A DNA stretch of 64,000 bases from Xanthostigma xanthostigma (Eukaryota; Arthropoda; Insecta; Raphidioptera; Raphidiidae), in the NCBI GenBank assembly GCA_963575645.1, contig OY754464.1:76792948-76856947 (forward strand), written 5' to 3'. Each line of letters starts with the position of its first letter. Within the stretch, counting starts at the first letter, position 1. Made by a program: the position numbers and the translations under genes. This document shows positions 31,262 through 60,878 of the stretch, in pieces. A model generated the notes under the pieces. It saw nothing but the letters and a program-made list of their open reading frames with translations. It made no database searches and had not been told where the DNA came from.

Positions 31262-31470
31262 TTTTGAAAGAGATTTATTTGGTTGAGGAACAAGTTTGAA
31301 ATAAGCTTTACCAGAGTATACATGTTCATAGGCCCTGATGATGAAAATATAATTTTCGAAACGTTGGCCACAAGCGATACTTTGGTAAAGCTTATTTTTC
31401 AATTGTTCCTCAACCAAATAAATCTCCTTCAATACATATTTTTGGAACAAAACGTCTACTAACAATTCTT
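31262..31470. mobile_element. Penelope-like foldback remnant 2
   Basis: Arms ATTTGGTTGAGGAACAA and AATAAGCTTTACC recur inverted on the right. The right arm holds an intact hammerhead-like core. The same arm sequence occurs at 46042-46232. Confidence 0.6.
31335..31362 (+). ncRNA. Hammerhead-like ribozyme core
   Basis: CTGATGA, then a 6-bp hairpin GAAAAT/ATTTTC with an ATA loop, then GAAAC. This is the conserved order around helix II of a hammerhead. One extra T lies between the box and the stem. Helix I and the cleavage site were not established. Confidence 0.4.
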
Positions 31471-32011
31471 ATTTTGCGAAATCTGTTTTTTGACGTTTAC
31501 ACTAACGCCATCGATCGGATTTTTGGGTGAATGTCAAAATATTCAACAAAAGCAAGGGGTATAGTGCAGTGTATATTTATTTTTTAACTAACTTTTCTAC
31601 CTGATATTTTGCTTGGTGAATTGAAAGTAAAGTTTACTCTCACCAATAAATTTGTTCCAAGATTAGTAACTTCCATTTTTAATAGAGTTCGGTGAATATG
31701 GCCCTAAGTTTAATACATAAATGTGGAAATACTTGAAATCAAAAAATTCATTACGTGCATTTTTCTTTTATTAGTAAGTTTTTAGACGCGTAACAATATA
31801 TTTGTTCAACCGTGAAATGGTTTTCAGGAAGACTGAAAGCCTACTCAGGTTTCCTGAAGACTATAATATTATCTAATTAATTTGTCTCAGTATTACCTTA
31901 CGCATGACTTGTTTAAACATGATGTATGCAAATCAACTTTTATATCTACGGTCACAAGAAAAACTGGCCTAAGTATGTTAATATTTTAGCTATTATTCAG
32001 TAAATGCGTGC

Positions 32012-32112
32012 CTTAAGGCCGCTGCACACGAGGCTAGAAACACTGCTAGAAACGCTGCTAGGAGGTCTGTATATGAACCGCTGACGGACTGCTAAAAGAC
32101 AACGTATGTTTT
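32012..32112 (+). mobile_element. PIF-like MITE (CACACGAGGCT family) left fragment
   Basis: TTA then AGGCCGCTGCACACGAGGCT and repeated CTGCTAGAAAC. The right end is absent. Confidence 0.65.
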
Positions 32113-32116
32113 AAAT

Positions 32117-32602
32117 TGTAAGAAGGCGCCACTGGAGGCGGCGGCAGTGCATTGTTCAGAGCCGCGTAAACAACAATACTTGCATTGTTGTCGGAACCGC
32201 ATAGACAACAATACGCGTATTGTTACATTTATTGTCATCGAAACCACATGCCGAAGCTTCTAGAATGCCGAAGATTGTTTCAGAACGCGGTTGAAGAACT
32301 TATATAAGCAGCGCTAGCGTGGAAGTCAGGCAGTCAGTGTCAGTGACAATAAATAATGCGTGACATAAATATAGTGACATAAAACACCGTTACAAATAGA
32401 CATCGGTGACAAATAAATATTCTGTGTACATTAGTAGTTATAATTGTTGTTTTAGAATTCTTTTGTTTTTCGTTATTTATTTTTTTATTTCATTTTTCAT
32501 TATTATTAGAGAAGTGCCTATTTGTTTGTTTTTGTGAACGTTTCTTTCTGTAAATAAATATGTTAATCACCAACTAAGAACAGTTTTGCGAGTTTTGTTA
32601 CA
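32117..32602 (+). mobile_element. Solo LTR (forward)
   Basis: Runs TGTAAGAAGGCGCCACTGG to GAGTTTTGTTACA (TG...CA ends) with a 4-bp duplication AAAT on each side (32113-32116, 32603-32606). No gag, pol or primer-binding site adjoins it. A 4-5 bp duplication suits Ty3/gypsy-like elements, but the family was not identified. Confidence 0.82.
32300..32307 (+). promoter_or_regulatory. TATA box of LTR
   Basis: TATATAAG followed about 25-30 bp later by a CAGTCAGTGTCAGTG stretch suited to an initiator. The same arrangement is conserved in the reverse LTR at 14097-14533. Confidence 0.6.
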
Positions 32603-32916
32603 AAATATATAGAAATCTGGCGAGATAAAAATTCTCTATACATATATATAAATCCGTACTTGTGGGCATGAAAATTCGAACACCACTTGAATTACCTACA
32701 CACGCTAGCACGGCGAAATGTGTGTGGAAAATTGAACGGATAATGGTTACAAAGTTGTAACAGTTAATATAGTTATATACAGGCCATTGAAACCCGGAAA
32801 CTCAGATAATGTTTGTAGAATGTAGATTTCTATCTACAGCACGGCCAGCCAAATTAAAACCTTGGAAAATACGAGAATTAAAATATAGACAAATTAGTTT
32901 TCAAATATTTTATTAA
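32603..32916. other. No feature recognised
   Basis: Nothing supported. Confidence 0.5.
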
Positions 32917-33512
32917 CGTCAGATAATCTTTAAATAATATAGTAGGTATATTGTACGACTAGTGAGAGAAGGAGAAGATTCCATGAGCGTGAAATTTGCC
33001 GCACGAGCGTAGCGAGTGCGGTAACACGCGAGTGGAATATTCTCCTTCGATCAATGGTCGCACATAATATTTTATTCAACTAGCACGAGTAATATGTAAT
33101 CGGGGCCCTGATAAAAGAGGGAAAAATAATAAATCACTTCATTGATTGACGTACCCACCGTCAGTGTATGCACACAAGATTGCCATGACTTTGGCCATGA
33201 CTATTGGTCCAGAAGCTGCGTGCAGTTTTTTTTTCATTATTTCACGCTTGGGCTTGCTACTGAGTTTCTATTGGTCCAGAAAATTCATTATCACACTGAA
33301 CGGATCATTATTAGCACTCTACGCGTCAACATGAAGTAATTTATTATTTCTCCCGAGTTTAGCAGGGCCCCGAAATTACATATTACTCACGCGTGTTGAA
33401 TAATAGTATATTGTGCGACTAGTGAGAGAAGGAGAAGATTCCATGAGCGAGTGCAATATTCTCCTTCTCTCACTAGTCGCACAATATACTATTATTTGAA
33501 GATTATCTGACG
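32917..33512. repeat. TIR element with inner duplicate hairpin
   Basis: Ends CGTCAGATAATCTT and complement. Inside, GACTAGTGAGAGAAGGAGAA occurs at 32956 and 33420, and again inverted at about 33460. The piece at 33411-33495 is a small near-perfect hairpin, probably a solo inner MITE. Non-coding. Confidence 0.7.
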
Positions 33513-33513
33513 A

Positions 33514-34293
33514 CAACAACAACAATGATAATGCGTTTAACGTCCGTTTCTCGACATTATGTCATAACAGACGCCATTCGCACCATTACTATTTTTTAAA
33601 CTTCAACTTAATTAATAGCAATAGTTAAATTAAGGAATTTAAAAAAAAATAAGGATAGGCAAATTTTAAGCATAAGAGTTTGACAAGTAATCGGCCATGG
33701 CCTTGAATAAGGACCCATCTCCATATTTATCTGGAATTATTGAGGGAAACCATGGAAAACCTCAACAAGATGGCCGGTACAGGAATTGGGCTTTTGAATG
33801 AAATTTTTTTTTGTCATAAATGGAAAGATCGTATATAAGTTTTATAACAAAACTATTTTTCTTTTTTTTATTTTCGTTATAATTCAAAAGTTATATCAAA
33901 TTAAAAATAAATTTTTGTACCCAGTTCCGAGAACGCGCCGACATTTCCCGAACATAATGTGACGTCATAATGTTTTAGTCAATACACATGTAGAAGCCAT
34001 TGATAGTATACTGCGTATATACATTTTACCATTATGACGTCACAACTGTCAAAAACAATTTTAGTGCGTTTGCAGTCACGTGATTTTTTTAAATATTTTA
34101 TCAATTTTAAATTGCTTATAATTAATTTAAAAAAAGTTTTTTGAAAGTTTTTCGCATCGGTTATCAATATTATTTATAATAAAGTTTTAAAATACAATAA
34201 AAAAATCGATAATTATTTTTTTTTTCAAAAGCCTAATTATCGTTTCTCGGCGAGAGGCAGTCTAGTGCTCTCACCGCTACGCAATTTTAAAAA
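33514..34293 (-). mobile_element. tRNA-derived SINE, copy 3, interrupted
   Basis: Body blocks CGTTTCTCGACATTATGTC and GGCCATGGCCTTGAATAAGG, then a 447-bp insertion, then TTTCTCGGCGAGAGGCAG and a truncated head (CTCACCGCTACGC). The B-box is deleted. Confidence 0.8.
33788..34234. mobile_element. MITE inside a SINE, AATT duplication
   Basis: Ends GGGCTTTTGAA and TTCAAAAGCCT. AATT on both sides matches the uninterrupted SINE sequence CAGGAATTATCG, so the site can be read exactly. Contains an inner TGACGTCATAATG inverted pair. Superfamily unsure. Confidence 0.75.
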
Positions 34294-34770
34294 TATTGAG
34301 CCGAATGGTTGAACACCCTGTAAAGAACACACCTATCTCAATCTGTAAAACCTTTCTGGTGTAATCACATCACTGAAGTTATAACCACTACCGAATCAAT
34401 GATAGAAGCCCAACTTCAAACTATCCGCTTTCACAAACACGGCAGTAATCGTTTTAAATAAATTGAGAAACTCAACGCTTTCAGCTCAACTAAAAGTTAG
34501 CGGTAGCACTTTATAAATTTTCAAATATATTTAACAGGATTCGAACCTTAACGCAATCGAAATGTGAATAAAACTTTTCCTACTGTTTCGCGCCGAACAA
34601 ATTTTTGCTACAATCATATCGAGCATTGGTCAAACTACGTACAGTGACGCGGGCAACGACTAGTACCAGATATTATGATATTTGCTACATGTCAGATGCG
34701 TAACTAAGGGGCCATTCAAATATTACGTAAGATTGGGGGGTCTAGATGGTGTTTACGTAAACAACTCAAG
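34294..34770. other. No feature recognised
   Basis: Nothing supported. Confidence 0.5.
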
Positions 34771-34995
34771 TGTGTAGGCTTTCACGGTCGGTGTTGATCC
34801 AAATCTTCTTGGTTTTCGGACTTGTATGCCGTGGTCCATTGGTATTTCTACCTGACGTTTCGTCTAAAACTGCGGTAGACACTTCGCCCGCTACCACATC
34901 GCCTTTGATAATGTCTACCGCAGTTGTAGACGAAAGGTCAGGTAGTAATACCAATGGACCACGGCATACAAGCCCGGAAACCAAGAAGATTTGGA
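34771..34995. mobile_element. Penelope-like foldback remnant 3
   Basis: Arms hold CAAATCTTCTTGG, TATGCCGTGGTCCATTGG and GTCTACCGCAGT in inverse order. Each arm has GTCTA/TAGAC hairpin then GAAAC or GAAAG (- strand near 34852-34892, + strand near 34906-34942). The CTGANGA box is degenerate in both. Frames here on both strands result from the inverted repeat. Confidence 0.55.
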
Positions 34996-35214
34996 TACGT
35001 CAACATTTACCTATTTATTTACTTTTAAAATGTGCATTAAATTTCTTTATAGTCTATAAAATCCTTATTTTCCTAGACTCGAAAACTGCTGCTCATGAAT
35101 AACAATACAAAATCTTGAACAGATTCAAAAAAAATATATACTAATGCTTACATGAGCAATAAATAAAGAAGGGGGGGTAAGAGCTTTGCTTACTTTTGCT
35201 CACAAGAAGGAGTA

Positions 35215-35679
35215 GTCAGAGAGCGCGTCGGCAAAAATTTTATTGACACATACTCTCCCCAAACTTTTGTTAGGCCTAGTCGGACACCTATTTCCTCTAT
35301 GACTTTCCTTGATTTTGGGGCGTTTTCCCTCTAAATTTTCCGAAAGATGTCATCTTGACTACATGTAAAAATTTATAGACACCTCGAATATGTTCGACAT
35401 ATTCGCGAGGTGTCAACATTTTAAATGGCCCATGTTATTTGTCAGAGAACATTATTTTAGCGTTTTGGTTGAAGTTTTTAAGCTATCCAATTAAAAAACA
35501 AACAGTATCTATACATTTTTTACATGTCGTCAAGACATCTTTCAAAAAATTTAGAGAGAAGACGCCCCAAAATCAAGAAAAGTCATAGAGGAAATAGGTG
35601 TCAGACTAGGCCTAATGAAGCCATATACAAAGTTTGGGGAGAGTATGTGTCAATAAAATTTGCCGATGGGCGCTCTGAC
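35215..35679. mobile_element. TA-flanked TIR element
   Basis: Long TIRs GTCAGAGAGCGCGTCGGCAA and near-complement with TA on both sides. The match extends through CAAAACGCCCC-type blocks to an inner hairpin GACACCTCGAATATG. 465 bp, non-coding. Tc1/mariner-type by duplication. Confidence 0.8.
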
Positions 35680-35689
35680 TAGAGGGAAG

Positions 35690-36114
35690 GGTAAAAAATT
35701 ACTAAAATTCTGCAAATACATTATTTGTCGACAGGCTATGGCACTGCAACCCAAGTTTTTTTATATACGAATAAGTATATAAACCAATTAAAATTGGGCA
35801 AATATCAATAAGCAAGAGGAACTTTTTTTTAAACAGTCGCGAATAAAATGAGACTCCATGACAATAAGCTGCATTTAAATGTAATCCGATTAACGTATTC
35901 AGTAACAGTAATATGGTAAAGCGTTTTAAATCTGCGTTATAAAATTCAGTATCTATTTGGTTTTTAGTTCGTCAATCTATTTCTCTAGCCAACGAGCAAA
36001 GAACCAACAGTTCGGTGGTTGAAGGGTCTGTGACGTGCGACGCTTTGCTTTGCTGCGTGACCACACACGTGCAAACTTACAAGATGATTGACAAAACACT
36101 GTCGACGAATATTG
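35690..36114. other. No feature recognised
   Basis: Nothing supported. Confidence 0.5.
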
Positions 36115-36920
36115 AATTTTATTTTGTCCCCAACAGAAAATAAACAAAACATTTATATAATCAAACGTTTGATATTCAAGATAAACGTCATAAATAGTAT
36201 ATTACACCACAAGGGCCGAAAGTGTGATATCTTACCCCGTCTCAGGGTAAAAATCACACTTTCGGTCAGTGTGGTGTATACTATTTTTCTTCATACCTCA
36301 GTCGTAAGCACGCTTATTAAATACATTAATTAATTACTTATTAATTACATAAAAACACGGATAAATTCCAAGCAATAAGCTTTGAGGTTATACTCAAAAT
36401 TGCGAATGACAGCTGTTCGCGACTATTAGCTAAAATGTAATAGGGTTCCTATGGAAACGACATCTAAACAACAGTTGATAGGTTGTTCTTGCTTTACTAC
36501 CGCACGAACTTCCCGATTTGGTGCGTGTAATCCTACCAAGGAGTAAATGCTTGATTTTCTGCCTTACATTTGATGCCGAAAGTACGTACTTTCGATCAAT
36601 TATAAGGCAGAAAGTACAACATTTACGCATTGGTGGGGATTACACGCACTTATGCGGAAAGTATGTACGTTCGGGTGGCAGTAAAAAAACAATAACCTAT
36701 CAACTGTCGTTTAGATGTCGTTTCCATAGCAACCCTATTACATTTTAGCTAATAGTCGCGAACAGCCGTCATTCGTGTTTTTGCGTGTAACGCTACTTGG
36801 TTGGAATTTATCTGTGTTTTGATGTAATAAATAAGTAATTAATTAATTAATATATTTAATAGGCATACTTATGAAGAAAAATAGTATACACCACACTGGC
36901 CGAAAGTTTCATATGCTTGC
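36115..36920. repeat. Foldback repeat family E, copy 2
   Basis: Homologous to 6217-7000 from TTTTGTCCCCAACAGAAAAT onward, with the same small and large inverted repeats. An extra inverted TATACACCACACTGGCCGAA lies at its right end, giving a fuller element than copy 1. Confidence 0.8.
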
Positions 36921-37431
36921 ACTGCGCGTCAATTTAGGTACTATAGATTTGAATTTTGAACTGGTACACAGAAAAATTCCAATACGATTTACAAAAATAT
37001 TTTGCAAAAAAATGTTTAGGATTATAGAAAAAAACGTTTTTGTAGAAAGCCAGCAAAAAAACTATTAGGTACTATACTAATAGGTGAAGAGCTGGCGACG
37101 AATTTATGGTATGTATTTTAGGCAAGTTGAAATAATAAAAAAACAACAGTATTTTATCAATCTCGAGTCTGGCAGAGCGTTTGCGGTTATTTCGCTTCTA
37201 CGCAGCATATGACATTTGCAAAAAAATAAACCAAAAAAATATGTTTTAGGCAACTAGAAATTTTTTGGTCTTTTACTTTAGCATTTGTATAAACCAGAAA
37301 TAAAAATCCCAGACTATTTTGTTGGTTTTAAAGTATGACCTGACCCCCTCCCGAATATATTTAATTAATATAAGCAAAAAATATAAACGTCTTGATAAAC
37401 TTTCTCTCTCGTAGCTAATGGCTACGCATAA
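36921..37431. other. No feature recognised
   Basis: Nothing supported. Confidence 0.5.
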
Positions 37432-37856
37432 AGCTCGGGTCACACTAAGCTGCTTGTCAGCCGCTGCTGATCAGCGGCGGACAGTAGCACCAGCAAGCAG
37501 CGGCGGGCAGCCCGGTCACACTACGGCTGCTACTCGCTAGTCTACCGCGAGTAGTGGCTGCCAATCCGGCCACTACATCATCGAACATAAACCACGTGGT
37601 ACGTGATAGTTTACTCGCCTATGATGCACTGCTTCGGTCAGACTGCGCTGCTCGCTGGTGGTAGCGGGTGCGAGTGAGTCACGTGACCTGCTAGTCGCCG
37701 TTGCCTGGCTACCAAAATAGAACATGTCCAATTTCACCAGCCGCTGATAAATACGACGCAAACGGCGAATTTTATGCTCACACCAAGTTGATTGATGGCT
37801 GATAGTAGCGGCTTCCACAACTCGCGGCTGGCAACCAGCCTAGTGTGACCCGCGCT
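37432..37856. mobile_element. PIF/Harbinger-like MITE, GTCACACTAG family, copy 2
   Basis: TIRs AGCTCGGGTCACACTAAGC and AGCGCGGGTCACACTAGGCT inverted. Inner sequence is the reverse complement of 16207-16636. Flanks TAA and TCG do not match, so one side has mutated. Confidence 0.82.
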
Positions 37857-38316
37857 TCGACTTATTTTTAAGCGGAGAAACGGACAGCCGGTATGTTCAC
37901 ATATGCACAGAGGCACGCCGCCAAAACCAAAGTCTCTCCAGTACATCCCATTGCCGTCACACAACTTTTACATTCGCTGGCTTTATCCAACTCCTCATTC
38001 TCTTGTCCCCGATCCTGTGTCCTCCCCCTTCCCCGCCTCTCGCCGTTCGTGGTCGTCCTCTTTCCATTCTACATGCTCTATAAACCCTATACAAACACAA
38101 ACGTGTAATTGTGATTCAAAATTCTGCAATCGCAGATAACTGAATTAGAGACATTCTTTTTTCAAAGGACGTTTCATTTTTTCTTCTCTTTTATTGAAGA
38201 TGTACAATTGTTTTTAAACTTTTGATTTGTATTTAAAGGATCGAGCTTATAGAGAAGTTACCTTTTTGGGTTTAAAATTGATTTATCATTTTTACGCAAT
38301 TTATAGCGCAGTTTAA
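37857..38316. other. Unassigned; CT-rich stretch
   Basis: 37990-38070 is pyrimidine-rich on the + strand and makes overlapping frames on both strands. No family recognised. Confidence 0.4.
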
Positions 38317-38550
38317 TGGCCATATTCACCGAACGTAAGTAGTTATTTATTCAATCTTTGATTAACGTCTGATTAGAACTCTTCAATAAATAAAAATATC
38401 AAATTATTTTTCAAACAAATATATTAACAAAAAAATATAATTAATACAATCGGAACGTTATTGTATTAAATATATTTTTTTGCTAATATATTTGTCTGAA
38501 AAATTGGTCGATAATTTTATTTATTTATTTATATATTTTTTAAACATGAG
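38317..38550. mobile_element. PIF-like left end plus Penelope-like arm
   Basis: TAATGGCCATATTCACCGAA matches the element at 30956, then breaks at 38359 into TTGATTAACGTCTGATTAGA and inverted ATATATTTTTTTG arms of the Penelope-like family. No ribozyme-like core left. Confidence 0.5.
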
Positions 38551-38693
38551 GTTGGTAAAAATGTCTGTCTTATATTATTATATTACTTTCGTATGTTGTA
38601 CCCGTACCTACACCATTTAATTGCCGTTGCTTCCACCATATTTTCAGTTTTGTTTAGAAGTTCTTTAAAATGGGGAGTCAAGTGTTATATAAT

Positions 38694-39128
38694 AATAACA
38701 ATAATACTAATAATAATAATAATGCGTTTCATGTCCGTTTCTCGACTTTATGTCATAACAGACGCCATTCGCACCATTACAATTTTTTTTCTACCACACT
38801 TCCCGTTTCTACGATTTTTAAACTTCAACTTAATTAATAGCAATGGGCGAATGAAGGAATTTTTAGGAAATTAGGATAAGGTAGGCAAATTTTGAGCATA
38901 GGAGTTTGACAGGTAATCGGCCATGGCCTTGAATAAGGAACCATCTCGATATTTATCTGGAATTGTTGAGGGAAACTATGGAAAACCTCAACAAGATGGC
39001 CGGTACAGGAATTATCGTTTCTCGGCGAGAGGCAGCAGGAAAAAGCCACATCTGCCCCTGCCGGGATTCGAACCCGGTACCTCTCGAATGCGAGTCTAGT
39101 GCTCTTACCGCTACGCCAACCCGCTCGC
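38694..39128 (-). mobile_element. tRNA-derived SINE, copy 4
   Basis: Full structure on the - strand: GAGCGGGTTGGCGTAGCGG head, GGTACCGGGTTCGAATCC B-box region, body, and ATT-repeat tail. About 435 bp. Confidence 0.88.
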
Positions 39129-41649: not shown

Positions 41650-41693
<44 letters not shown>

Positions 41694-42569
41694 AACCTTT
41701 TATATCTTTTGAACGGAGTGTCCGACTGAAACGCGGTTTGCGGCATCTGACGTGATCTTGGTGAACTTAGACTTCCTGAAAATTTGAAACGATTCGGCCC
41801 AAAAAATTTTGAGAAATCTTAAAAAAACAAGTTTCAAAAATTTTTTAAAACTTGTTTTTGTAAAATATTTTCTAAACTACTAAACCGAATAATTCCAAAA
41901 TCTAATCAGCTCTTCTCCTTAACAAACTGCGTCGATTTCCGCAAACCGCATCAAAATCGGTTCATTTGTTCACGAGATACCGTGAACGAAAAAATCGTAA
42001 AAAAGTGTTTTTTTAAAATGATTCTTAAAATTGTTATCAGATCGATTTTTTTGTAATAAATTACTTTCTTAGGCTAAAAAAACTGCGTCGATCGCCGCAA
42101 ACCAGATCAAAATTGGTTCATTTGTTCATGAGATAACGTGAACGAAAAATTAGGAGAAAAATAATTTTTCATAATTACTCGTAAAATTCTTATCAAATCG
42201 ATTTTTTTGTAATAATTTACTTTCTTAGGTTAAAAAAACTGCGTCGATCGCCGCAAACCAGATCAAAATTGGTTCATTTGTTCATGAGATAACGTGAACG
42301 AAAAATTAGGAAAAAAGTAATTTTTTATAATTATTCGTAAAATTCTTATCAAATCGATTTTTTTGTAATAATTTACTTTCTTAGGTTAAAAAAACTGCGT
42401 CGATCTACGCAAACCGCATCAAAATCGGCTCATTTGTTCATGAGATATAGTGAACGAAAATTTCGTAACAGTGTTTTTTTTTTTTTTGATCTCGAAGAGC
42501 TAAAAAATAAACTTCTTGCTATATTTTATATATTTTTGAGCGTTTTGAACTCGAAAATAGCGGGAAGTT
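41487..42569. mobile_element. GGGAAGTT-ended TIR element
   Basis: Ends AACTTCCCGC and GCGGGAAGTT. Left part has ACCCCGATTTTCGAAAATCG and a TG repeat at 41650-41680. Core has four units of about 157 bp (GCGTCGATCGCCGCAAACC at 41928, 42084, 42241, 42398). Fragments elsewhere at 7005 and 60388. No protein coded. Confidence 0.8.
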
Positions 42570-42574
42570 ACAGG

Positions 42575-43041
42575 GATGGCCTGCAGGGTCAAACTTCTTT
42601 TCAAATTTTTTTTTAAATAAAAACAAATTTTTTTTGTTTTGTAGGTACCTTTTTTCAGTTAACTGTATAAAAATACAGAACCGATTTTATTGTCAATCAA
42701 ATTTTCAAAAAGAGCATTTGATTGTAAAATTCAATGTTTTCCTAAATTTGCTTTTTAACTTTTTTCTATCAATTTTACGCTTATGACATTCACAATTTGA
42801 AAAAAAAATTTATAAATTTAACATGGCAGAGATAATATTAGAATTTTTTTAGACAATGACAAAGGATCATAACTAACAATGAATTGAGGTTATGTTTTGT
42901 TGACGCGAATTCTCTAATTCCATATTTTGTATTCAATTTTTAATCGACTTGTAAAAATATAAAAGTTAACATATTAGTGAAAGTAACGAATGAATAAAAT
43001 TTTAACAAATCTGTAATCAAAATCAGATTACATTTAATGGT
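42575..43041. other. No feature recognised
   Basis: Nothing supported. Confidence 0.5.
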
Positions 43042-43335
43042 CACTTATATAATTAGTGAATTTTTATATTCACTTATATAATTAGTGAATTTTTATATTC
43101 ACTTATATAATTAGTGAATTTTTATATTCACTTATATAATAAGTGAATTTTTATATTCACTTATATAAAAAGTGAATTTTTATATTCACTTATATAATTA
43201 GTAAATTTTTATATTCACTTATATAATTAGTGAATTTTTACATTCACTTATACAATTAGTGAATTTTTATATTCATTTATATATTTAGTGAATTTTTATA
43301 TTCACTTATATAATTAGTGAATTTTTATATTCACT
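43042..43335. repeat. Minisatellite, 29-bp unit, about 10 copies
   Basis: Unit CACTTATATAATTAGTGAA plus TTTTTATATT. Each unit contains an inverted TTCACT...AGTGAA pair, so the array can fold. Few point differences between units. Confidence 0.95.
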
Positions 43336-43879
43336 AAATCATATTGTGAGTATTCACTAATTCTGGGTGGTACGATTCTAGCATTGACAAATAGTGAATA
43401 TTCACTTGTAATTAGTAAAAAATCACTGATTCATGTTTAAGAGAGTGTGAATCTGAATAAAATGTAAAAAATATGACGTATATAATATGCGTGATAATAG
43501 ATACATCCAACTTAAAAAAAATGTATGTGTCAGTGTGGATCACAAACTTTATGAACATTATGTCAGGAGTTGAAATATACACTGGTTGATCAATATCGAA
43601 CATAAACCAACCTGTCATGAAACATAACCTGTAATCTGTATGAGTGCACGTTCACTTTAAATTAACTTTGACAAGTATGAGTTCCTCGACAAAATGTTTG
43701 CCTCATTTTATAAACACCTGACTCACAAATCTATTATCAAATTTCCGTTGAAAGTTCGTGAAAAAAATTAGTAGACGTGTCCAGGGGCGGCGGATTTTCA
43801 TTGACTCGACTGTTGAAAATTTTTTGTTTATTATAGAGAAAAAAAGTATAATTGTGCTTCAATCTTGAGATTATAAATA
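43336..43879. other. No feature recognised
   Basis: Nothing supported. Confidence 0.5.
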
Positions 43880-44453: not shown

Positions 44454-44521
44454 TAAAAAACTTTAAGCGAATTTTATTGAAAACTAATTATAAATTAATT
44501 TTTATATTTTTTAGATCATTT

Positions 44522-44550
44522 CTGAAGAAGATCCAAATCCTGACCGAAAC
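44522..44550 (+). ncRNA. Hammerhead-like ribozyme core
   Basis: CTGAAGA, then GATCCAAATCCTGACC, then GAAAC. The helix II hairpin is partly degraded here (GATCC pairs with GGATC in the copy at 60850). CTGANGA satisfies the hammerhead consensus, where the fifth base is free. Confidence 0.35.
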
Positions 44551-44610
44551 GTTAATGTATTAATTTTATTGAAGAGTTCTAATCAGACGTTAATCAAAGA
44601 TTATTTTTTA

Positions 44611-46041
44611 TTAAAAATAGCTGTGCCAAGAAATTGAATAGAAACCAAATCAATTTTTCTTTATTAATACATTATAATATTATCAAATATCAAATTTCAT
44701 TAGAAAACTCGATGGGTGAAGATCGAGCCAAGTCGGGATCTTAGACTATAATATCAACAAGCTTAACATTAGTTCGTGAAAATATCAAGCTTCTTACATT
44801 GATCAATCCGTAGATACATATTTATTAAAGATTATTGGTATAATCAATGTATTATCGAATCACCCCGTATACAGCATAAGATAAGAAAACGTGTGTCGAC
44901 CTCTGGTCTAACCGAGCAACAACATCGGTCGTACAATACAGGTTCTGATTAAATCTATCAACTCGATTGAATAACTTATTTTCAAAGAATCGTAAATTTC
45001 AGCCATGTCTTTCTACCGTACGAACCCGAACTGCGTATATATATGTTCTGGTTTGGATGTGTTCGAATGTATTTTATGTAGTATGTCTTTTCTATGTATA
45101 TCCTGGGGCGGAGCAGGGCGCTCCGCTGTTGTACGAAAGTGCTCTTTCTGCTAGCACATACGTAGGTAAATACTCCTTTACGTTTCAGATGATAGTACAG
45201 TAGCGTTCAGGAAAAATATTAATCATATATATTAATACGCTAAGGTTTAAGATGTTTGCCTCCCTTTTTAGAAAAAACCACACAATTTCTCCACATAAAT
45301 TATATATCATTTTACAGATAATTGCTTGCTCTACTGACATCGACAACTAAAAAATTTATTATTGCTATTGTTTTTGTAAATTAATTAAACTCTGAACAAC
45401 GTCTGCCATCTGACGGCGTAACGTTAACACTTCGATTTGTCATCTGACCATATTGTAAATACTGCATACTGCCATCTGACGGGCAACGCTAAACAACGCT
45501 TTTGCTACTTGCGCCTCTATATGACAATTTTAGTAAAATATTTCCTTTACAACAAAAAGAAGAACGTTATAAACAGTGTGCAAAATTAGAAACGAATTGA
45601 ATACCTGCAATCATATTTAAAAAATAATTTTGTAAAGTGATAATTATTATACTTATTTAGTACGAATAATTCGCACAGGTCACGCTAGTTTTTACAAAAT
45701 ATACTTGACACCATTTCCGGGTTCTATAAAGTCGGCGATTTTTCAATAAGATCGAAACGCTAACTCCCTACGTCATCTGCAGTTTCAAGTCGTCTGGAAT
45801 GAATATGAATTTGCTGAAAAAAAAATTCCTAAAGTGTTAATTTTTATTAACATTTCGGCATAACACAAACTAGCAAATATCCCATTTTGTGTTCTTCCTT
45901 TTTCAAAGAATCATATCGAAAAGGTCTTAGGTCATTTGCTTATCACGATAGGTTTAACGCATCCGGCTCTTGGACTAGTAGAACTAAACAATTAAAACAT
46001 AAATAAATCAAAATGAATAATAATTTTAAGATGATGGAAGG
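44611..46041. other. No feature recognised
   Basis: About 1.4 kb without a supported gene or repeat pair. GCCATCTGACG occurs twice (about 45406 and 45471). A short GC-rich patch lies at 45100-45160. Confidence 0.45.
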
Positions 46042-46094
46042 TTTTGGTTGAGGATCATAAAATAAGCTTTACCAATGTTTCGCTAGAGGCCAAC

Positions 46095-46122
46095 GTTTCG
46101 CAAAATTTATTTTCATCTTCAG
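46095..46122 (-). ncRNA. Hammerhead-like ribozyme core
   Basis: On the - strand CTGAAGA, hairpin AAAAT/ATTTT, then GAAAC. Mirror of the next entry. Confidence 0.4.
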
Positions 46123-46146
46123 GGCCTATGAACATGTATATATGCC

Positions 46147-46174
46147 CTGAAGATAAAAATACATTTTTCGAAAC
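46147..46174 (+). ncRNA. Hammerhead-like ribozyme core
   Basis: CTGAAGA, hairpin AAAAAT/ATTTTT, then GAAACGTTGGCC. The inverted arm upstream supplies a GGCCAACGTT complement that could form helix III, though any palindrome would do that. Confidence 0.4.
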
Positions 46175-46547
46175 GTTGGCCACTAGCGAAACATTGGTAA
46201 AGCTTATTTTATGATCCTCAACCAAATCATTCATTCTATTGGATCAACACTACTTTATACTGAATAATAATTTTAATAATATATAATTTATATTTAGAGA
46301 TTGTTTTTACAGAATGCCAATAAATTTGGGTAACATTTTCTGGGGATTTTTTTTATTTTTTCCAAAATTGACTGTGACTATTTTAACGTGGCAGTTTAGT
46401 GTATAGGTGCAATATAGTTTTGTTTCTATTGTCCATTCTGTATTTTTATTCACTCACATTTTTTTCTGGGGAATATTTATATTAATACATAAACTTAATT
46501 ATCAACCAGTTTTTCAGACAAATATATTAACAAATAAGCAAAAAACT

Positions 46548-50770: not shown

Positions 50771-50791
50771 TGATGTTTATAATATACCCAC

Positions 50792-51840: not shown

Positions 51841-51950
51841 ACTTTTTAAGCGCTATTTTATACCAATCATTAATTCAGCGACGTTTCCGTCATATATTTG
51901 ATCTTCATCAGGCATCTAAAAATTCAGCACATGTTAAAATGACATAACCA
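51841..51950 (-). mobile_element. Penelope-like end, single
   Basis: - strand GATGCCTGATGAAGATC to GGAAACGTCGCTGAATTAAT. Only one arm found. Confidence 0.5.
51883..51911 (-). ncRNA. Hammerhead-like ribozyme core
   Basis: CTGATGA followed 17 bases later by GAAAC. Helix II is weak here (TCA/TGA only). Confidence 0.3.
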
Positions 51951-52412: not shown

Positions 52413-52499
52413 CTGCATAAACAATAAATAATGTTTTATTTACTAACAACTAATTACCTAACATAATATGTATCCAACACACAATTCCCGTTAAAGAGT

Positions 52500-52870
52500 T
52501 CTGTAATCGAACATGACAGATACTCAAATCTTTGATTCGATCAATTTTTCAGACAAATATGTTAAAAAATAATAATTAAAAAATATTAAAAAAATATAAA
52601 AATTGATTAATAATTAGTATTTGAAAAAAAATTCGCTTTAAGTTTTGAATTATCAAAATTGAAAAAATAATAACAATTTTATAATTCAAAACTTAAAGCG
52701 AATTTTTTTTAAATACTAATTAGAACCTAATTATTAATCAATTTTTATATTTTTTAAATCAGTTCGGAAGAAGATCCAAATCCGGACCGAAACATTACTG
52801 TATTAATTATTATTTTTTGTTAATATATTTGTCTGAAAAATTGATCGATAATTTTATTTATTGAAAAAAA
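52500..52870. mobile_element. Penelope-like foldback remnant 6
   Basis: Inverted arms AATTCGCTTTAAGTTTTGAA and AATTGATTAATAATTAG. Right arm has CGGAAGA, GATCC/GGAcC hairpin, GAAAC (52765-52793), one base off the CTGANGA box. Confidence 0.55.
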
Positions 52871-53267
52871 CAGAGATACTATTAAAATAGGTATTTTTAA
52901 GAAATCGTGTTCAACGACTGCTAGGAGTTACGTAAAAACAACGTCACAATCTTAATTGTAATTAGTGACGACTAATATCTTAAATGTAATTCGATTTAAG
53001 TTCTTATAAAGCACGAATAAAGAAATAATATGCAAATGTGTGAAACTTTAGTGGCGAAACTTGAATAAAATCGATATTTGAACGCATTATTAGCACGGGT
53101 AGACGTAATTCCTTGCGTCGTTAGCTCTATCTGTACGTCCTTCTTCAGAAGAGCTTAGTTGGCCGTGACATAGGCGATGGGCCTAATAGTTATGCAATGG
53201 ACCGTGCATTGCGGAACAAGGATTTATATATACTACGAAGCTAAATAAACCGATGACTAGCAAATAA
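52871..53267. other. No feature recognised
   Basis: Nothing supported. Confidence 0.5.
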
Positions 53268-53988: not shown

Positions 53989-54246
53989 CAATGTTACATT
54001 AACATAATATGTAATACACCATCTGAAAGTATACATTTTAACGAAAAGATTTTTGAAAATCTGAAATTTTGACATTACTTTTTTAGGTTGAAGTTATAAG
54101 GGGTAATTTTTCGGTTTTTTGTTAATATTACATTGGCAAATTAATTTTTTTATTCGAAAAAATTACAGCTTATTTAGGACATAGAAAGGCAAGTCTCCTG
54201 AAAATTTCATGAAAAAAAAATCATTTTTGCGGAAGAAAAAAAAATA

Positions 54247-54488
54247 TGTCTGTAAAGTCGGTTTACGGACGATAGTTTTACGTGATAACGTATTCCGCTC
54301 GAATATCATATTTAATAATACATAACCTAAATTTTAGTAGCTGTCAAACTTGGGCCGATCGTGCTTCTCTATCGCTTATACTGCGCTCTCGCTTGCACGC
54401 ACAGGGTCAGGCGGAACGTTACGGCGTTACACTTTTTCGTGCGTGCAGCTGGTGTTTCATCAATTTATAAGACGTTATCACGTCAAAA
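54247..54488 (+). mobile_element. MITE family A, copy 5
   Basis: Full compact copy, GTCTGTAAAGTCGGTTTACG to GACGTTATCACGTCAAAA. Near-identical to copy 4. Confidence 0.9.
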
Positions 54489-54828
54489 TTAAAAACGAAA
54501 AATACGGTTTTTTCGATATTTCTCTGAACTATGAGGTTATGTGAAAAGAACGAATTTCTTAGAATCTTCGGTACGCACGATGCCGACAACAAACAAGTAC
54601 TGTTTATTGCTTAATGATGACGTATTGTTGTCATTATTTAGAGTGGGTGTGTCGTTATTTAGAGTGTATCATTGTATCAGCAACAAGGTAAACCAACTAG
54701 TTTGTCGTTATATCGAGTGACGTTAAATGGAATTTACACTGAACATATATTTACAGATGTGTCTATGAGAGAAGAGAGAGAGAGAGAGAAACAAGGAAAG
54801 CCGGTAACAAGCAGCTAACACATACACA

Positions 54829-54866
<38 letters not shown>

Positions 54867-55322
54867 TATATATATACACATATAAGATTCATTTGAATAT
54901 TAATGGTGCTTGGAGTCGCGGCCCCATTACACGCATGATAAGATCTGTTTATAACCGTACACCCCGCCCCGACTTCCCCTATGTGATCTGATCTTCCTTC
55001 TAGCTAGCGGGCTCTGCAGCCTGCTCGGTGCTCTTCATTGCCACAATGCACCCTCAGCGCGCGTCCTGTCGGATAAAGCGTATAATTGAAACAAAAGATA
55101 GCACTCTCGCTGGGACTTACCCGCCCGCCTAACGCCGCCATCGCCACCCATCCTCATGCGTTACAGTTCAGTGCCGAGTTTTACTGATAGCGACTAGATG
55201 GCTATCGAAGAAACACACCGCACACAAAATACTGTGTGCTGTAAAATAAAACTGGTATTTTTATCTTTAAGGAAATATGTAAAGTCACTGAGAAAGTGGC
55301 ATTATTGGACATAAAAACATTA
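54489..55322. other. Unassigned; AT repeat and GC-richer patch
   Basis: A TA dinucleotide run lies at 54831-54862 and an AG run at about 54772-54790. 54910-55160 is GC-richer and looks low-copy. No gene supported. Confidence 0.45.
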
Positions 55323-56160
55323 ACGGGGTCGTGTCGATGCGATGGTGTTTTTTTTGCGCAGTGAAAAGGAGTTTGGGGGAAGTTCTTTAAAAAACAATTA
55401 CGGGGTCGTGTCGATGCGATGGTGTTTTTTTTTGCGCAGTGAAAAGAGAAAGACGTTTGGAGGAAATTCTTTAAAAAACAATTACGGGGTCGTGTCGATG
55501 CGATGGTGTTTTTTTTGCGCAGTGAAAAGGGGAAGGCGTTTGGAGGAAGTACTTTCAAAAACAATTACGTGGTCGTGTTGAAGCGATGGTGTTTTTTTTT
55601 GCGCAGTGAAAAGGGGAGGGCGTTTAAGGGAGTTGTTTAAAAAACAATTACGGTGTCGTGTAGATGCGATGGTGTTTTTTTTTGCGCAGTGAAAAGGGGA
55701 AGGCGTTTGGATGAAGTTTTCTAAAAACAATTACGGGGTCGTGTAGATGTGTTGGCGTTTTTTTGCGCAGTGAAATAAGGAGGGTGTTTAAAGAAGTTCT
55801 TTAAAAAACAATTACGGAGTCGTGTAGATGCGATGGCGTTTTTTTTGCGCAGTGGAAAGGAGAAGACGTTTGAGGAAGTTTTTTAAAAACAATTACGGGG
55901 TCGTGTAGATGCGATGGCATTTTTTTTTGTGCAGTGAAAAGGGGAAGGCTTTAAAGGGAGTTCTTTAAAAATCAATTACGGGGTCGGATCGATGCCATAG
56001 TGTTTTTTTTGCACAGTGAAATGGGGAATGCGTTTGGGAGAGCTTCTTTAAAAAACTATTACGGGGTCGTGTAGATACGGTGGCGTTTTTTGTGCGCAGT
56101 GAGAAGGGGAGGGCGTTTGGGCGAGTTCTTTAAAAAACAATTACGGGGTCATGTATACAA
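55323..56160. repeat. Minisatellite, about 82-bp unit, ten full copies
   Basis: Units start ACGGGGTCGTG at 55323, 55400, 55484, 55567, 55650, 55733, 55814, 55895, 55978, 56061, 56143 (77-84 bp apart). Each holds GCGATGGTG, a T run and GCGCAGTGAAAAGG. The TTTTACTGATAG string occurs just before and just after the array. Frames on both strands follow the repeat and are not genes. Confidence 0.96.
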
Positions 56161-56711
56161 TGTAAGATAGTATACTTATACAGTCTACACCAGTTTTACT
56201 GATAGGATATTTTGTCTGTAGGATGTTTGGTCGCGGAATCGTTGGGTGGAGGTGCTGGTCTTACGTGCGCTACTTCGTTAAATAACACGGGTACATTCAC
56301 AAACAAGATTTTGATATATCCAACTTGAAAACTTGATCAGCTCTCTAGTCTATTGAAATTTAAATCCATACAGTTGCTATATGCCGATCTCATCCCGGTT
56401 AATGTGTTGTTTTGTATGACGTCTTCTGAAATAGTCGTGCATGTAATATAATCAAATTCATTTAGCGTCTGGAGAGCTACAGCTGAGATCAGCTTCATTT
56501 ATGTCTATCAGTGAAAGTGTCCGATTATCGCGAACTGTTGACTCCTGTTTGTTCTTCAGGACTGTAACTGTACCTACTCTACATTTGGTACAAGATGTTC
56601 CAAGCAGACTTGTATTAACTTATTTTACAACAGCTATGTATAACGCTATGATAGTAATGATGATCCAGTGGCTTAGAAATAATCCCTTTTTTTAACCGAA
56701 TTCGACATATA
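56161..56711. other. No feature recognised
   Basis: A 64-residue + strand frame at 56501 has no recognised motif. Not called. Confidence 0.45.
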
Positions 56712-56846
56712 CAGGCTGATTTTTAAGTTGATTCTTCTTTTTTAACAGCGTGCATAAATCAAATAGACAAACAAATATTTTAGGTAGTAACTGTTTTAAC
56801 AAAACTTAAACAGCCGTTCAAACTTGAATTAAATTTTATTTAATTA

Positions 56847-58564
56847 CAGTAGAACGTCGATTATCCGAACGCCGATTAACCGAATCGCCAATTATCCGAA
56901 TCGGTCCTAAGCGTAATATAAAAAATATTGTCTGAAGACACAAGTAATTCAAGAATTACAAGGCGCGAAATTCTATACAATATACCCCGGCGTTATGTTT
57001 GAAAATTGTAGTATATTTTTAACGACACTTTGAGCTTAATAATATAATTTAATTAACTTAATCTACGAAAAAAATTACAGTTGAAAATATTGAAACACAG
57101 AAAGGAAAAAATCATTTTAATAATTTATTAATAATTAGTCACAACCAACTTTTTAAAATAATTATATTTCCATTTTGGTACATTTCAATAAAAACTTTCT
57201 TTTTATTATTATTTTATTTTTCTTGTAATAACATATATCTCTGATGCGCATGCGCCGATTTTTCCCGAAATAAAACAAAAATTTCTTGTAAAACATAGAA
57301 TAATAAGCCGCTATGAAAAGTATACCATTGTTATATAAAAAACGTTACCTATAGCACATAATATCTCTTGCGCATGCGCCGATTTTCCCCAAAAATAAAT
57401 TACAAAACTTTCTTGTAAGACAGATAGAATAATCAACCTTATGAAATGTAAAGCATTATTATATAAGAAACAACGTCATAGCCCATATCTCTTTTGCGCA
57501 TGCGCCGATTTTCCCCAAAAAATTTACAAAACTTTCATGTAAAAATAGATAAATAATAAGCCTTTTTAAAAACTATATTATTATTATATAAAACAACATT
57601 ATAAAAGATATACTCTTTTACGCATGCGCCGATGTTCCCAAAAAACAATAGGCCACTTCATATTTGCATATCAAACATCCTCCCAAAATTTGGTTTCAAT
57701 CCGCTCATCCGTGGTGTCGGAATGGTAAGAAATGTCAAAAATGACGTTTGCATCTGTCAAAGTATTATGTTCTAATAATTAGTTATTCATATTGTTAACT
57801 CAGAAGGCGTTGCATTTCACAAATATTTGAAATGCCATCCGTTTTTGAACAAATGCAATCGTTTTATTTTAAGACAGAACAAACGTAATCTTTATATTAC
57901 CATATTAAACCGTGCAACAGAGAGAGATAACCGAAAGATGTTTGCCATCGATTATATCAAATTGAATTTATTTCTAAATAAATTTGTATAAAAAACCTGT
58001 TTTGGCAAATTCTGTTGTACGAAATTTATGTAAAATTTTCTCCTCTTTCGTTTAAGACAGGTTTCGAATCGATCTGATTTAAATTGAGTGAGTTATAAGC
58101 AAAAAACTTCGTTTTTTCTTTATTGCTCCCCTCTGGGGTCAAAATTCAAAAATCGGGCGACGTTAGGATTTAAGTTACCCGGAGACGAATCGAACAAAAA
58201 AAAGTTTTTTAAAATCGGTTAAGGCGTTTGGGCTGTACGCTGGATACAAAAAGCGTGACTCACAGATTCACAGACAAAGCGAGTACATATAAGGCGCTTT
58301 AGCTTACGCTAATCGCGCCTAAAAATTAAAACCCAGTAATTTTTTCAATAAAAACAAGTTTTGTGGGGACGCAAGAATACAAAAATGCGAGTGACAATTG
58401 CCGTGTAGACGCTACAGTGGTATCAGCACACGTCGAAGTTGGAACTCGCTGGAGTCCAGATATATTTCAACTGTTATGGTTGAAAGCTAGAGGCAAGACA
58501 CTACATGTCCGATTATCCGAATCGACCCCGGTCCCAATTAATTCGGATAATCGGCGTTCTACTG
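56847..58564. mobile_element. Pogo/Tigger-like element
   Basis: TIRs CAGTAGAACGTCGATTATCC and near-complement, TA on both sides. 1718 bp, but the inside is mainly family B/G repeat sequence rather than a transposase, so B/G either hitched in or inserted later. Confidence 0.8.
57236..57720 (+). repeat. Family B with four tandem units
   Basis: GCGCATGCGCCGAT occurs at about 57247, 57371, 57496 and 57621, about 125 bp apart, where other family B copies have it once. The usual CATCCTCCCAAAATTTGG block follows. Confidence 0.85.
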
Positions 58565-58575
58565 TAAGTCAAAAC

Positions 58576-58713
58576 CCTGGTTAATACACGCGAAGAAATG
58601 ATAGCACGAATCGGAAATGTAAACCAAATAATTCGCGGAAGGCCCTCATCGCTACTACAAAAGCATGGCCTTGTGTTCAACAAAATGGGGATAACTTCGA
58701 ACAATTTCTGTGA
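58576..58713 (+). pseudogene. Mariner-like transposase C-terminus
   Basis: LVNTREEMIARIGNVNQII in one frame, then after a frameshift KAWPCVQQNGDNFEQFL and a stop. The pattern matches the end of Tc1/mariner transposases (TxEEMxxRI ... CxxxNGxxFE). Not functional. Confidence 0.65.
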
Positions 58714-58954
58714 ATACTTGATAATGACATAACATATTTCCATAGTGACATAACATAACGCCAAGACCGACTTCAAAATTTGATAAAATTTACGAAAACT
58801 TTGAAAGCCTGTTTCTCTTTCATTTTTGAGTTTTGATAAAAAAGTTACTTGAAATATTTGTACGTCTATTCGATTTCCGTACGCTGTTAAAAAAAAGAAT
58901 CAACTTAAAAATCATTATGTTTAATTTTTTTTTGTTTTTTATTTTAAGTCAAAA

Positions 58955-59001
58955 TCTAGCAACGAGTCTAACAGCAAAACCAGCAACGTGTGCAGCGAAC
59001 T
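58955..59001. mobile_element. PIF-like MITE right-end fragment
   Basis: CAGCAACGTGTGCAGCGAAC resembles the right end of 48984-49418. Confidence 0.4.
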
Positions 59002-59053
59002 GTACAATCCATTTTTGGAAATATTTATATTGAGACGCTGGTCTTTAGAATGT

Positions 59054-59480
59054 AATAAATAGTACTTAATAGTAATAATGCGTTTAACGTCCGTTTCTCG
59101 ACTTTATGTCATAACAGACGCCATTCGCCCCATTACTATTTTCCATCTATTACACTTCCCGTTATTTTCTACATGTTTTTCAACTTCCACTTAATTGATA
59201 GCAATGGGCGAATAAATTTTAGGACATTAAGATAAGGTACGCAAATTTTGAGCATAGATAATCGACCATGGCCTTGAATAAGGAACCATCTCGATATTTA
59301 TCTGGAATAATTGAGGAAAACCATGGAAAACCTCAACAAGATGACCGGTACAGGAATTACCGTTTCTCGGCGAGAGGCAGCAGGAAAAAGTCCCAGCCAC
59401 ATCTGCCCCCGTCGGGATTCGAACCCGGTACCTCCCGAATGTGTGTCTAGTGTTCTCACTACTACGCAACCCCGCTCGGT
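59054..59480 (-). mobile_element. tRNA-derived SINE, copy 5, with target duplication
   Basis: Full copy on the - strand. Flanks TGGTCTTTAGAATGT (59039-59053) and TGGTCTTTAAAATGT (59481-59495) agree at 14 of 15 positions, fixing both borders. Head CCGAGCGGGG, B-box GGGTTCGAATCCC, tail of ATT units. Confidence 0.93.
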
Positions 59481-59590
59481 TGGTCTTTAAAATGTTTAAT
59501 AACCAAAACCATGAAGAAAACTGTATTTAACATAAATTTTCATTATAATTTATTGACTTTGTACTTCTCTTTTTGACTAATATAGAATCT

Positions 59591-59621
59591 CTGAAGATGG
59601 CAATAAACAATGTGCCGAAAC
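59591..59621 (+). ncRNA. Hammerhead-like ribozyme core
   Basis: CTGAAGA, hairpin GGCA/TGCC, then GAAACGTAAG. No inverted partner nearby. Confidence 0.35.
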
Positions 59622-59923
59622 GTAAGATAATATATTAAATGAATAATACAAAGTACAGCATTCATTGATCCATAGCCGCTATTTCTCCATCCAATTATTT
59701 CGATTAAGGATCGCAAATCTCTACAAATTTTGTAGTAAAAGATAATAATTTTTATATTATTTGGCAGATGATATAAATAAAGATGTTATAATATAAATGT
59801 CTAGTATAACTAGAGTTATTCTGGAACACAGTGCAGGCGGCCTCGTATACTTTAACGATATTACAGTAAACACTAGAACTTTTCCTTTCAACTCATAAGT
59901 AGTTTAAAAGCGACACTGTGACC

Positions 59924-60352
59924 TTACGCTGCATACGAGGCTAGTTTTGCCACTAGATTCCTTGCTACATTTGGCTGTTAGATTTCAAGCGTGCTGTTGC
60001 GCTGGATTTGCTGATGGCTTATGTATTGAAGCTGGATTTGTAGATGGGTTTGATGCGCGCACAGTGACAAGTCAAATGTTAACATAAGTGAACGTTTATT
60101 GTCTCTGAACAGACCACACACTATGGTGATATGCTTGTTTGTAGGCGTTTGTCTATGTCGCCCACGTGACAAGATTGATTCTTGTTCAAAACAAGCGGGT
60201 AAACAAGCACGGAACATAACCCCGGTTTAATTTTAACATTCATCTTGTGAGCACGAACGCAAGCCCGCGGTGACGTCATTTCAATCTTCGATGCCAGCAA
60301 GCACAAGTCCCAGCGGTTATTCCAGCGACCAAAACAGTGTGTAGCATTGACT
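59924..60352. mobile_element. PIF-like MITE, CACACGAGGCT family, diverged copy
   Basis: TACGCTGCATACGAGGCTAG at the left and a worn AGTGTGTAGCATTG at the right. Inner sequence aligns with 48984-49418 and 20835-21013. Confidence 0.7.
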
Positions 60353-60387
60353 GATCACTGAACAAAAAATTTGAAAAGAAGTGTGAC

Positions 60388-60470
60388 CTTGCAGGCCATC
60401 CCTGAAACTTGCCGCTATTTTCGAGTTCAAAACGCTCAAAAATATATAAAATATATCAAGAAGATTATTT
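60388..60470 (-). mobile_element. Right-end fragment of the GGGAAGTT element
   Basis: GCAGGCCATCCCTG then CGCTATTTTCGAGTTCAAAA, the inverse of 42500-42590. It carries 15 bp beyond the TIR that also match, so the true end may lie outside GGGAAGTT. Confidence 0.6.
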
Positions 60471-60709
60471 TTTTTGTAATAGAAAAAGAATTAAATAAAA
60501 TTCTAAAATCCTCCGACTTAACGCAGGCAAGTAACCAAAGAAAATCCGTCGGGGGATGCCATTCGCTGCCCTGAATTAAGAATAGGAGAATATAAATTAG
60601 TCAAATCTTTGATTAACGTCTGATTAGAACTCTTCAATAAATAAAATTATCGACCAATTTTTCAGGCAATTTATTAACAAAAGAAATATATATATAATTA
60701 ATACATTAA

Positions 60710-60737
60710 TTTCGATCCGGATTTGGATTTTCTTCAG
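60710..60737 (-). ncRNA. Hammerhead-like ribozyme core
   Basis: - strand CTGAAGA, ATCC/GGAT hairpin, GAAAT. The last base differs from the other copies (GAAAC). Confidence 0.35.
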
Positions 60738-60849
60738 AACTGATCTAAAAAATATAAAATATTTTTTCAATATTAAAAACTCAACGAATTTCATTAAAAA
60801 TAATTAGAATGTAAATATTAATTACTTTTTATATTTTTTTAAATCAGTT

Positions 60850-60878
60850 CTGAAGAAAATCCAAATCCGGATCGAAAC
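60850..60878 (+). ncRNA. Hammerhead-like ribozyme core
   Basis: CTGAAGA, ATCCAAATCCGGAT hairpin, GAAACGTTAATG. Best preserved of this sub-type. Confidence 0.4.

Follow-up and report, generated by a model that had tools for sequence, protein, structure and literature searches.

Hammerhead ribozyme motifs in a window of the Xanthostigma xanthostigma genome as probable 3'-terminal relics of head-to-head inserted Penelope-like elements, with a U3-A8 core in one clade

Penelope-like elements (PLEs) reportedly carry minimal type I hammerhead ribozymes, which are said to have been described by Cervera and de la Pena in 2014 and by Lunse et al. in 2017. We analyzed a window of 64,000 nt from the genome of Xanthostigma xanthostigma (contig OY754464.1, here C1, positions 76792948-76856947; the genome comprises 623 Mb in 28 contigs), in which a first-pass annotation had proposed eight hammerhead-like cores dispersed in remnants of inverted repeats. 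According to two published accounts, PLE hammerheads possess the core and stems I and II, lack stem III, occur in thousands of dispersed copies and lie in some cases in pseudo-long terminal repeats (pLTRs), all of which is also the case here (PMC7761336, PMC6155905). PMC3846280 and PMC8969392 likewise describe PLEs with tails and target duplications and with pLTRs in inverted orientation. The Poseidon element of Anolis carolinensis (PAc) combines reverse transcriptase (RT) and GIY-YIG endonuclease in one frame, a pLTR hammerhead and AT-rich targets, and the elements described below share these traits (PMC11167929). With high confidence we interpret the window sites as 3'-terminal pieces of several PLE families that were inserted head to head, one clade of which has U and A instead of C and G at core positions 3 and 8 (U3-A8 instead of C3-G8), and the copies in the window as relics.

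We observed ten matches to CTGANGA followed after 5 to 30 nt by GAAA in the window, compared to 2.64 ± 1.68 expected from 100 shuffles (maximum 7). Eight of them are the annotated sites, and the remaining two, at 26878(-) and 56932(+), fit the chance number. We also trained a covariance model on 16 hammerheads, all from outside the window, whose selection required stem II to reach 4 bp and the core pair to be C-G or U-A (13 by script and 3 by hand; 4 of the 16 belong to the family called B below or lie near it). At E ≤ 1.3e-4, the E-values being rough, the model matched 11 window sites, namely all eight annotated cores together with 11941(-), 12251(+) and 52765(+). Six of the eight annotated starts are exact and two were off by one nucleotide and are corrected here to 46096 and 51884. 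The 11 matches are followed by a gap to 34906 (E 0.13) and to the previously unlisted 30647 (E 0.14), so that three of the five sites that had been listed as worn versions were confirmed, while 34906 falls behind the gap and 34852 is absent from the 36 model matches at E ≤ 10 in the window. Rfam, the check that the annotation had proposed, found no hammerhead in the window, neither at the gathering score nor at E ≤ 10, an outcome that the annotation had listed as refuting its reading, although the fitted model does match the window sites. As Rfam was likewise silent on ten genomic loci that hold relatives, while the fitted model matches, its silence in the window is not decisive. RF00008 had no match in the genome, but its controls were silent as well. 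Rfam was rejected as an arbiter of hammerhead identity on account of these controls and because it misses loci with intact-frame relatives.

Judged by their sequence, the window sites belong to the minimal type I hammerheads, with nothing but the palindrome ACGU for stem III. We found the core CUGANGA...GAA, A15.1-U16.1, H17 and stems I and II, with the exception that stem II does not start directly after A9. In seven of the eight main sites GAAA extends to GAAACGT[T/C/A], and in most of them the sequence that follows partly matches the bases preceding CTGANGA; 60710(-) lacks the CG of GAAACGT, 12251 reads GAAACAT and in 52765 U4 is changed. As a rule, A9 and stem II are separated by one additional nucleotide in this genome: of the first 100 places selected by their core, 77 have a stem II with 4 bp or more that begins one nucleotide past A9, compared to 27.7 with swapped halves, and in one place each it begins directly after A9 or two nucleotides after it. 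In the 16 model sequences, stem I is paired in 78.1% of the cells compared to 41.2 ± 5.5 after shuffling, and its covariation score is 0.95 compared to 0.23; none of 500 shuffles reached either value, and stem I pairing had played no part in picking these sequences. That stem II and the core pair are completely (100%) paired in the same sequences is no evidence, since the sequences were chosen for it. The annotation had noted that stems differ between copies while pairing is kept, and had taken this as a sign of selection on structure. Between families this is borne out by stem I, but it does not extend to the window copies, as under our stricter filter stem II remains unbroken over 4 bp or more in only two of the eight main sites, 31335 and 59591. 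With most copies lacking an unbroken stem II, we conclude that they are decaying.

Relatives were collected by a GIY-YIG search (37 matches) and a protein search (75 scored of 1,250 candidates) of the genome. RVT_1 and GIY-YIG both exceed the cut-off in one frame at three loci, L051, L055 and L052. L051 has a frame of 804 aa between two hammerheads, the first (at 5925) about 30 nt ahead of the frame and the second (at 3206) about 250 nt behind it. The second one is followed by codons 1-20 of the frame, which places the hammerhead in a pLTR. The frame matched no solved structure by sequence at E ≤ 0.01. A hammerhead of the family that we call A lies about 325 nt past the frame of L068 (at least 781 aa), and one of family B about 180 nt past the frames of L066 (at least 707 aa) and L067 (822 aa). 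All three frames match L055 over about 500 aa with E 1e-50 or better, and we base their kinship with PLEs on these matches to a two-domain frame, as Pfam is weak or silent here. The family A and B copies in the window are 84-95% identical to the 3' ends of L068 and L066 over 56-190 nt. The best conserved of the eight hammerheads, 59591-59624(+) in the family C feature 59583..59632 on the plus strand (E 1.6e-9), is 86% identical over 50 nt to L072 and L074, where the matching stretch lies directly 3' of PLE protein matches. Sequence comparison thus supports an origin at the 3' ends of PLEs for seven of the eight main sites (31335, 46096 and 46147 in family A; 44522, 60710 and 60850 in family B; 59591 in family C), in line with the Penelope affinity proposed in the annotation, while 51884 is unplaced. 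When nine PLE frames and an unassigned open reading frame (ORF) were compared with the window itself by tblastn, no PLE coding homology was found, as the annotation had also noted for RT and GIY-YIG frames, and ten ORFs of the window yielded one sub-threshold Pfam match.

Next, we determined the boundaries of the hammerhead-bearing features. A family A insertion at 31255..31476 on the plus strand (insert 31267-31464) contains the hammerhead 31335-31365(+) (E 8.4e-8) and is flanked by the 12-nt repeats ATTCTTATTTTG at 31255-31266 and 31465-31476, which were equaled by 1 of 197 random pairs and which emerged after the bounds had been adjusted, the first look having found none. Its left arm is short, inverted and without hammerhead; identity to L068 is 94.5% at 31317-31462 and 91% at 31264-31319, which is inverted. 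The head-to-head family A insertion 46014..46276 carries the hammerheads 46092-46122(-) and 46147-46177(+) (E 5.2e-7 and 3.5e-5) in a palindrome at 46037-46232 (90.8%), with arms 85-87% identical to L068 and 16-nt repeats TGAATAATAATTTTAA at 46014-46029 and 46261-46276 (0 of 194 random pairs as good). Family B is represented by a head-to-head insertion at 60474..61105 (palindrome 86.6%; hammerheads near 60708-60737(-) and 60850-60881(+), E 1.3e-4 and 2e-8; 84-89% identical to L066), in which the search for a target duplication was negative, and by two fragments on the plus strand, one at 44485..44602 (hammerhead 44522-44553(+), E 8.8e-9; 89% identical to L066 over 91 nt) and one at 52719..52900 with the worn hammerhead 52765-52796(+), whose U4 is changed (E 1.2e-4; 86% identical to L066 over 149 nt). 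The head-to-head insertion 11857..12390 of family E belongs to the U3-A8 class. It has hammerheads at 11939-11968(-) and 12253-12282(+) (E 2.1e-7 and 2.4e-5), a palindrome at 11871-12350 (88.5%), a 26-nt tail on the right arm and 14-nt repeats AACAAAGAGAGACA at 11857-11870 and 12377-12390 (0 of 199 random pairs as good). Family E matches the loci L033, L035 and L036, where GIY-YIG lies upstream on the same strand. The inverted-repeat setting given in the annotation holds for 31335, 46096/46147, 60710/60850, 11941/12251 and 34852/34906; at 59591 we found no palindrome, and at 44522 and 52765 palindromes only adjoin the motif.

The inverted repeats represent insertions in head-to-head arrangement, whose joins vary and which show one-sided tails and target duplications of 12-16 bp, an anatomy of PLE type. 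Duplications of 12-16 nt were found at three of the six window elements, and duplications of 13-16 nt at five of the eight copies examined of a further family, G. In reference positions, the arms of family G join at 1481/1481, 1623/1655, 2110/1891, 2936/1060, 2896/308 and 2955/2955. The overlaps measure 0-6 nt, and one outer end is 30-39 nt longer in the four copies with both ends readable (L062, L053, L063 and L055). The copy with the 2955/2955 join, L055, forms a 220-bp palindrome with two outward hammerheads, which is the same form as the window pairs, so that the small and the large forms make up one series. Among the first 100 places listed for each class, adjacent hammerheads no more than 1.5 kb apart are divergent in 20 of 24 cases for C3-G8 and in 12 of 14 for U3-A8, while PLE protein neighbours within 8 kb (75 matches) are divergent in 8 of 17 cases, tandem in 9 and convergent in none. 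This genome offers a large sample of head-to-head PLE insertions whose joins can be read. At C7:24097535-24111362, five PLE protein matches stand in direct tandem with a spacing of exactly 3,097 bp, the first unit being L065 of the U3-A8 class.

Several observations weigh against this interpretation. In addition to the silence of Rfam, Pfam at E ≤ 0.01 gave nothing in the frames of L066, L067 and L069 and stayed just under the cut-off for L068 (GIY-YIG) and L065; no coding partner for families D and F appeared among the loci compared; and no target duplication was found at the window elements B3, F and B2 or at the family G copies L054, L055 and L056. In the model sequences, stem I is weak in several rows, and two-sided pair changes and further pair types were as good in 412 and 128 of 500 shuffles, respectively.

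For the insertions we propose that a PLE enzyme would cut both strands of AT-rich DNA and that copying of the element RNA would begin at internal sites and extend each of the two cut ends. It would usually stop early on both sides, and the two stubs would be joined head to head, often at few matching bases, which would leave outward-pointing hammerheads, a one-sided tail and a target duplication of 12-16 bp. The hammerhead, in which two RNAs would presumably pair through the self-complementary ACGU to act as a dimer, would trim multimeric element RNA by a predicted cleavage. We lean towards this double-ended copying, and self-priming, in which cDNA or antisense RNA folds back and copies itself without any copying onto both cut strands, is a close rival that we regard as quite plausible, if somewhat short of an even chance. 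Such a fold-back on an antisense template has been proposed for the Penelopes of Adineta vaga (PMC3846280), and it would give the perfect or near-perfect turns of L051 (1481/1481) and L055 (2955/2955). Four of the six joins are unequal, however, with overlaps of 1-6 nt, and two of them differ by more than 1.8 kb (2936/1060 and 2896/308). The arms of a single insertion are identical or nearly so (0/944, 1/655, 0/1572, 0/157 and 0/115 differences), as self-priming predicts, but this would also be expected if one RNA were copied twice, and the nearest other copies differ by only 1/940. PAc is reported to start internally and to cut and extend both strands in vitro (PMC11167929), which favours double-ended copying over self-priming; both processes may be at work. 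That the short inverted repeats are miniature inverted-repeat transposable elements (MITEs) of a DNA transposon, holding a hammerhead-like motif by chance, is very improbable. The palindromes are short and AT-rich, the window contains no RT, and families D and F fit this idea in having no PLE coding partner among the loci compared, but PLE relatives exist for families A, B, C and E, and duplications of 12-16 bp occur with a one-sided tail. Moreover, the fixed terminal inverted repeats of a DNA transposon are not seen in family G, whose arm breaks range from 308 to 2955 of the reference although the family has RT/GIY-YIG. The relatives found encode RT and GIY-YIG, although no transposase search was made. 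Twin priming of LINE-1 type, which inverts the element's own 5' part, was rejected since the inverted arm here repeats the 3' end of the element. The elements also do not match animal retrozymes, whose direct tandem repeats of about 300 bp with a full hammerhead contrast with the largely divergent neighbours here.

The sites 11941 and 12251 read TTGAAAA instead of CTGANGA and have stems I and II, and 11941 keeps an intact GAAACGTT. At positions 3 and 8 they, and 34906 with them, are thus not worn copies of CTGANGA, as the annotation had assumed, but have a U3-A8 core. These two positions pair in the folded ribozyme (PMC2837043). The same core class is found at the PLE loci L069 (TTGAAAA) and L065 (TTGATAA), whose proteins are 46.5% identical. 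Both loci keep TGA, A9, GAA and ACGU-H, as do the family E loci L032 and L033. Among 42 distinct hammerheads in the collected sequence, 35 are C3G8, 6 U3A8 and 1 A3A8, of which the window site 63325 (U3A8) and the sole A3A8 are chance-like. Throughout the genome, the exact core with GAAACGTH has 20,879 matches as C3G8 compared to 115 for the reversed pattern, 7,083 as U3A8 (control 648), 1,400 as U3G8 (control 224) and 1,620 as C3A8 (control 259). Net of controls, the odds ratio for pairing over the four classes is about 83, the counts being of copies and not of events. Stem II is formed in 77 of 100 sampled C3G8 strings, 30 of 50 U3A8, 27 of 50 U3G8 and 12 of 50 C3A8, and the listed variants with a single changed partner are mostly scattered offshoots of C3-G8 families or unrelated repeats. 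The string CTGAGAACATGTATAAGAAACGTC, which fits the C3A8 pattern without a hammerhead stem II, forms recurring divergent pairs about 240 bp apart, e.g. at C1:7302602/7302841.

In a tree of nine long PLE frames, L065 and L069 stand together at 100/100. A tree of the endonucleases without L031 groups the five U3-A8 rows (80/80; 78% of bootstrap trees) with one change; L035, whose core is worn, and L039, in which no hammerhead was read, were unlabelled in it, and L036 was labelled U3-A8 from its core. With L031 two changes are needed; L031/L061 were left out as their GIY-YIG groups with family E and another insertion may be the source of the C3-G8 hammerhead that follows at about 500 nt. A single swap, retained while the proteins diverged to 46.5% identity, would be the simplest reading. 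This suggests that core pairing was selected in living elements, and we see about an even chance that a PLE clade kept its hammerhead working by a compensated change from C3-G8 to U3-A8, so that core pairing, and probably self-cleavage, would be needed in the life cycle, although insertion in vitro does not depend on it. Rather unlikely in our view is that U3-A8 is a drifted, non-functional hammerhead carried in one PLE clade, in which the changed bases pair by chance. The tree requires only one swap between C3-G8 and U3-A8, and with two U3-A8 rows in the nine-frame tree 50 of 500 label shuffles cluster equally well. Furthermore, as 27 of 50 U3G8 matches still form stem II, stem pairing alone is no proof of function. 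For PAc, insertion in vitro takes place without hammerhead catalysis, and public reads gave no RNA ends at the cleavage site (PMC11167929). Other core variants lie just 3' of PLE protein matches, CCGAAGA (U4C) at L072 and L074 and CAAA for GAAA (G12C) at L076, and point to lineages that may have lost the ribozyme. Drift is opposed by the finding that among the fixed core bases of L065, L069, L032 and L033 none has changed except the two partners of the core pair, which argues that spreading elements needed that pairing, and by a report of 2011 on natural U3-A8 hammerheads, in which such cores are said to be active in vitro (PMC3088659). If the clade kept its hammerhead working in this way, it left thousands of U3-A8 copies. 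The double change in any case provides natural variants of matching design with which the role of core pairing can be tested directly.

The remaining hammerhead-like sites of the window are less well placed. The family D site 51880..51911 on the minus strand has an imperfect stem II (E 2.7e-5) and no convincing relative among the loci compared, with one similar genome place at C1:11455113. The family F palindrome 34797..34996 (85.6%) contains two worn hammerhead-like sites, the right one reading TTGATAA (U3-A8); its string TTGATAATGTCTACCGCAGTTGTAGAC recurs among the listed genome places of the U3-A8 search, while no coding partner was found and the model reaches only E 0.13, at 34906. The window also contains tandem arrays at 1276-1781, 41921-42463, 42975-43380 and 55373-56174, with units of about 32, 156, 29 and 83 bp, and a dispersed repeat family, perhaps a short interspersed nuclear element (SINE), at 18365-18732, 33511-33836, 38702-39118 and 59058-59407. 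A tRNA-like Rfam match lies at 39061-39118(-) (29.5 bits), where ARAGORN reports no tRNA. Another repeat family, sharing TGCGCATGCGCCGATTTT, is found at 30208, 57189, 57313, 57439 and 63353.

By themselves, the eight sites of the window are ordinary PLE relics. The Penelopes of Adineta vaga resemble them in their inverted head-to-head pLTRs, one-sided tail (31 bp there) and target duplications, but these duplications measure 8-10 bp compared to 12-16 bp here, the copy number is low, and hammerheads have no mention (0 occurrences) in the available text of that paper (PMC3846280). Animal retrozymes also carry type I hammerheads in non-coding repeats, but form direct tandem repeats of about 300 bp, whereas close neighbours are mostly inverted here (PMC7229834). 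The internal start sites of PAc account for the tail there as they would here, but its core is C3-G8 and was changed in vitro, in contrast to the natural paired change in X. xanthostigma (PMC11167929). The same compensated change of the core pair is reported for several natural hammerheads, which are not tied to PLEs in the section concerned (PMC3088659). A literature search that did not extend to Cervera and de la Pena (2014) and Lunse et al. (2017) brought up no U3-A8 PLE clade. Compared to published PLE hammerheads, the genome may be set apart by its second large class, U3-A8 (PMC7761336, PMC6155905). Thus the inverted, tailed and target-duplicated anatomy was already known for PLEs, and the U3-A8 class of PLE hammerheads is the part that is apparently new, as far as we are aware.

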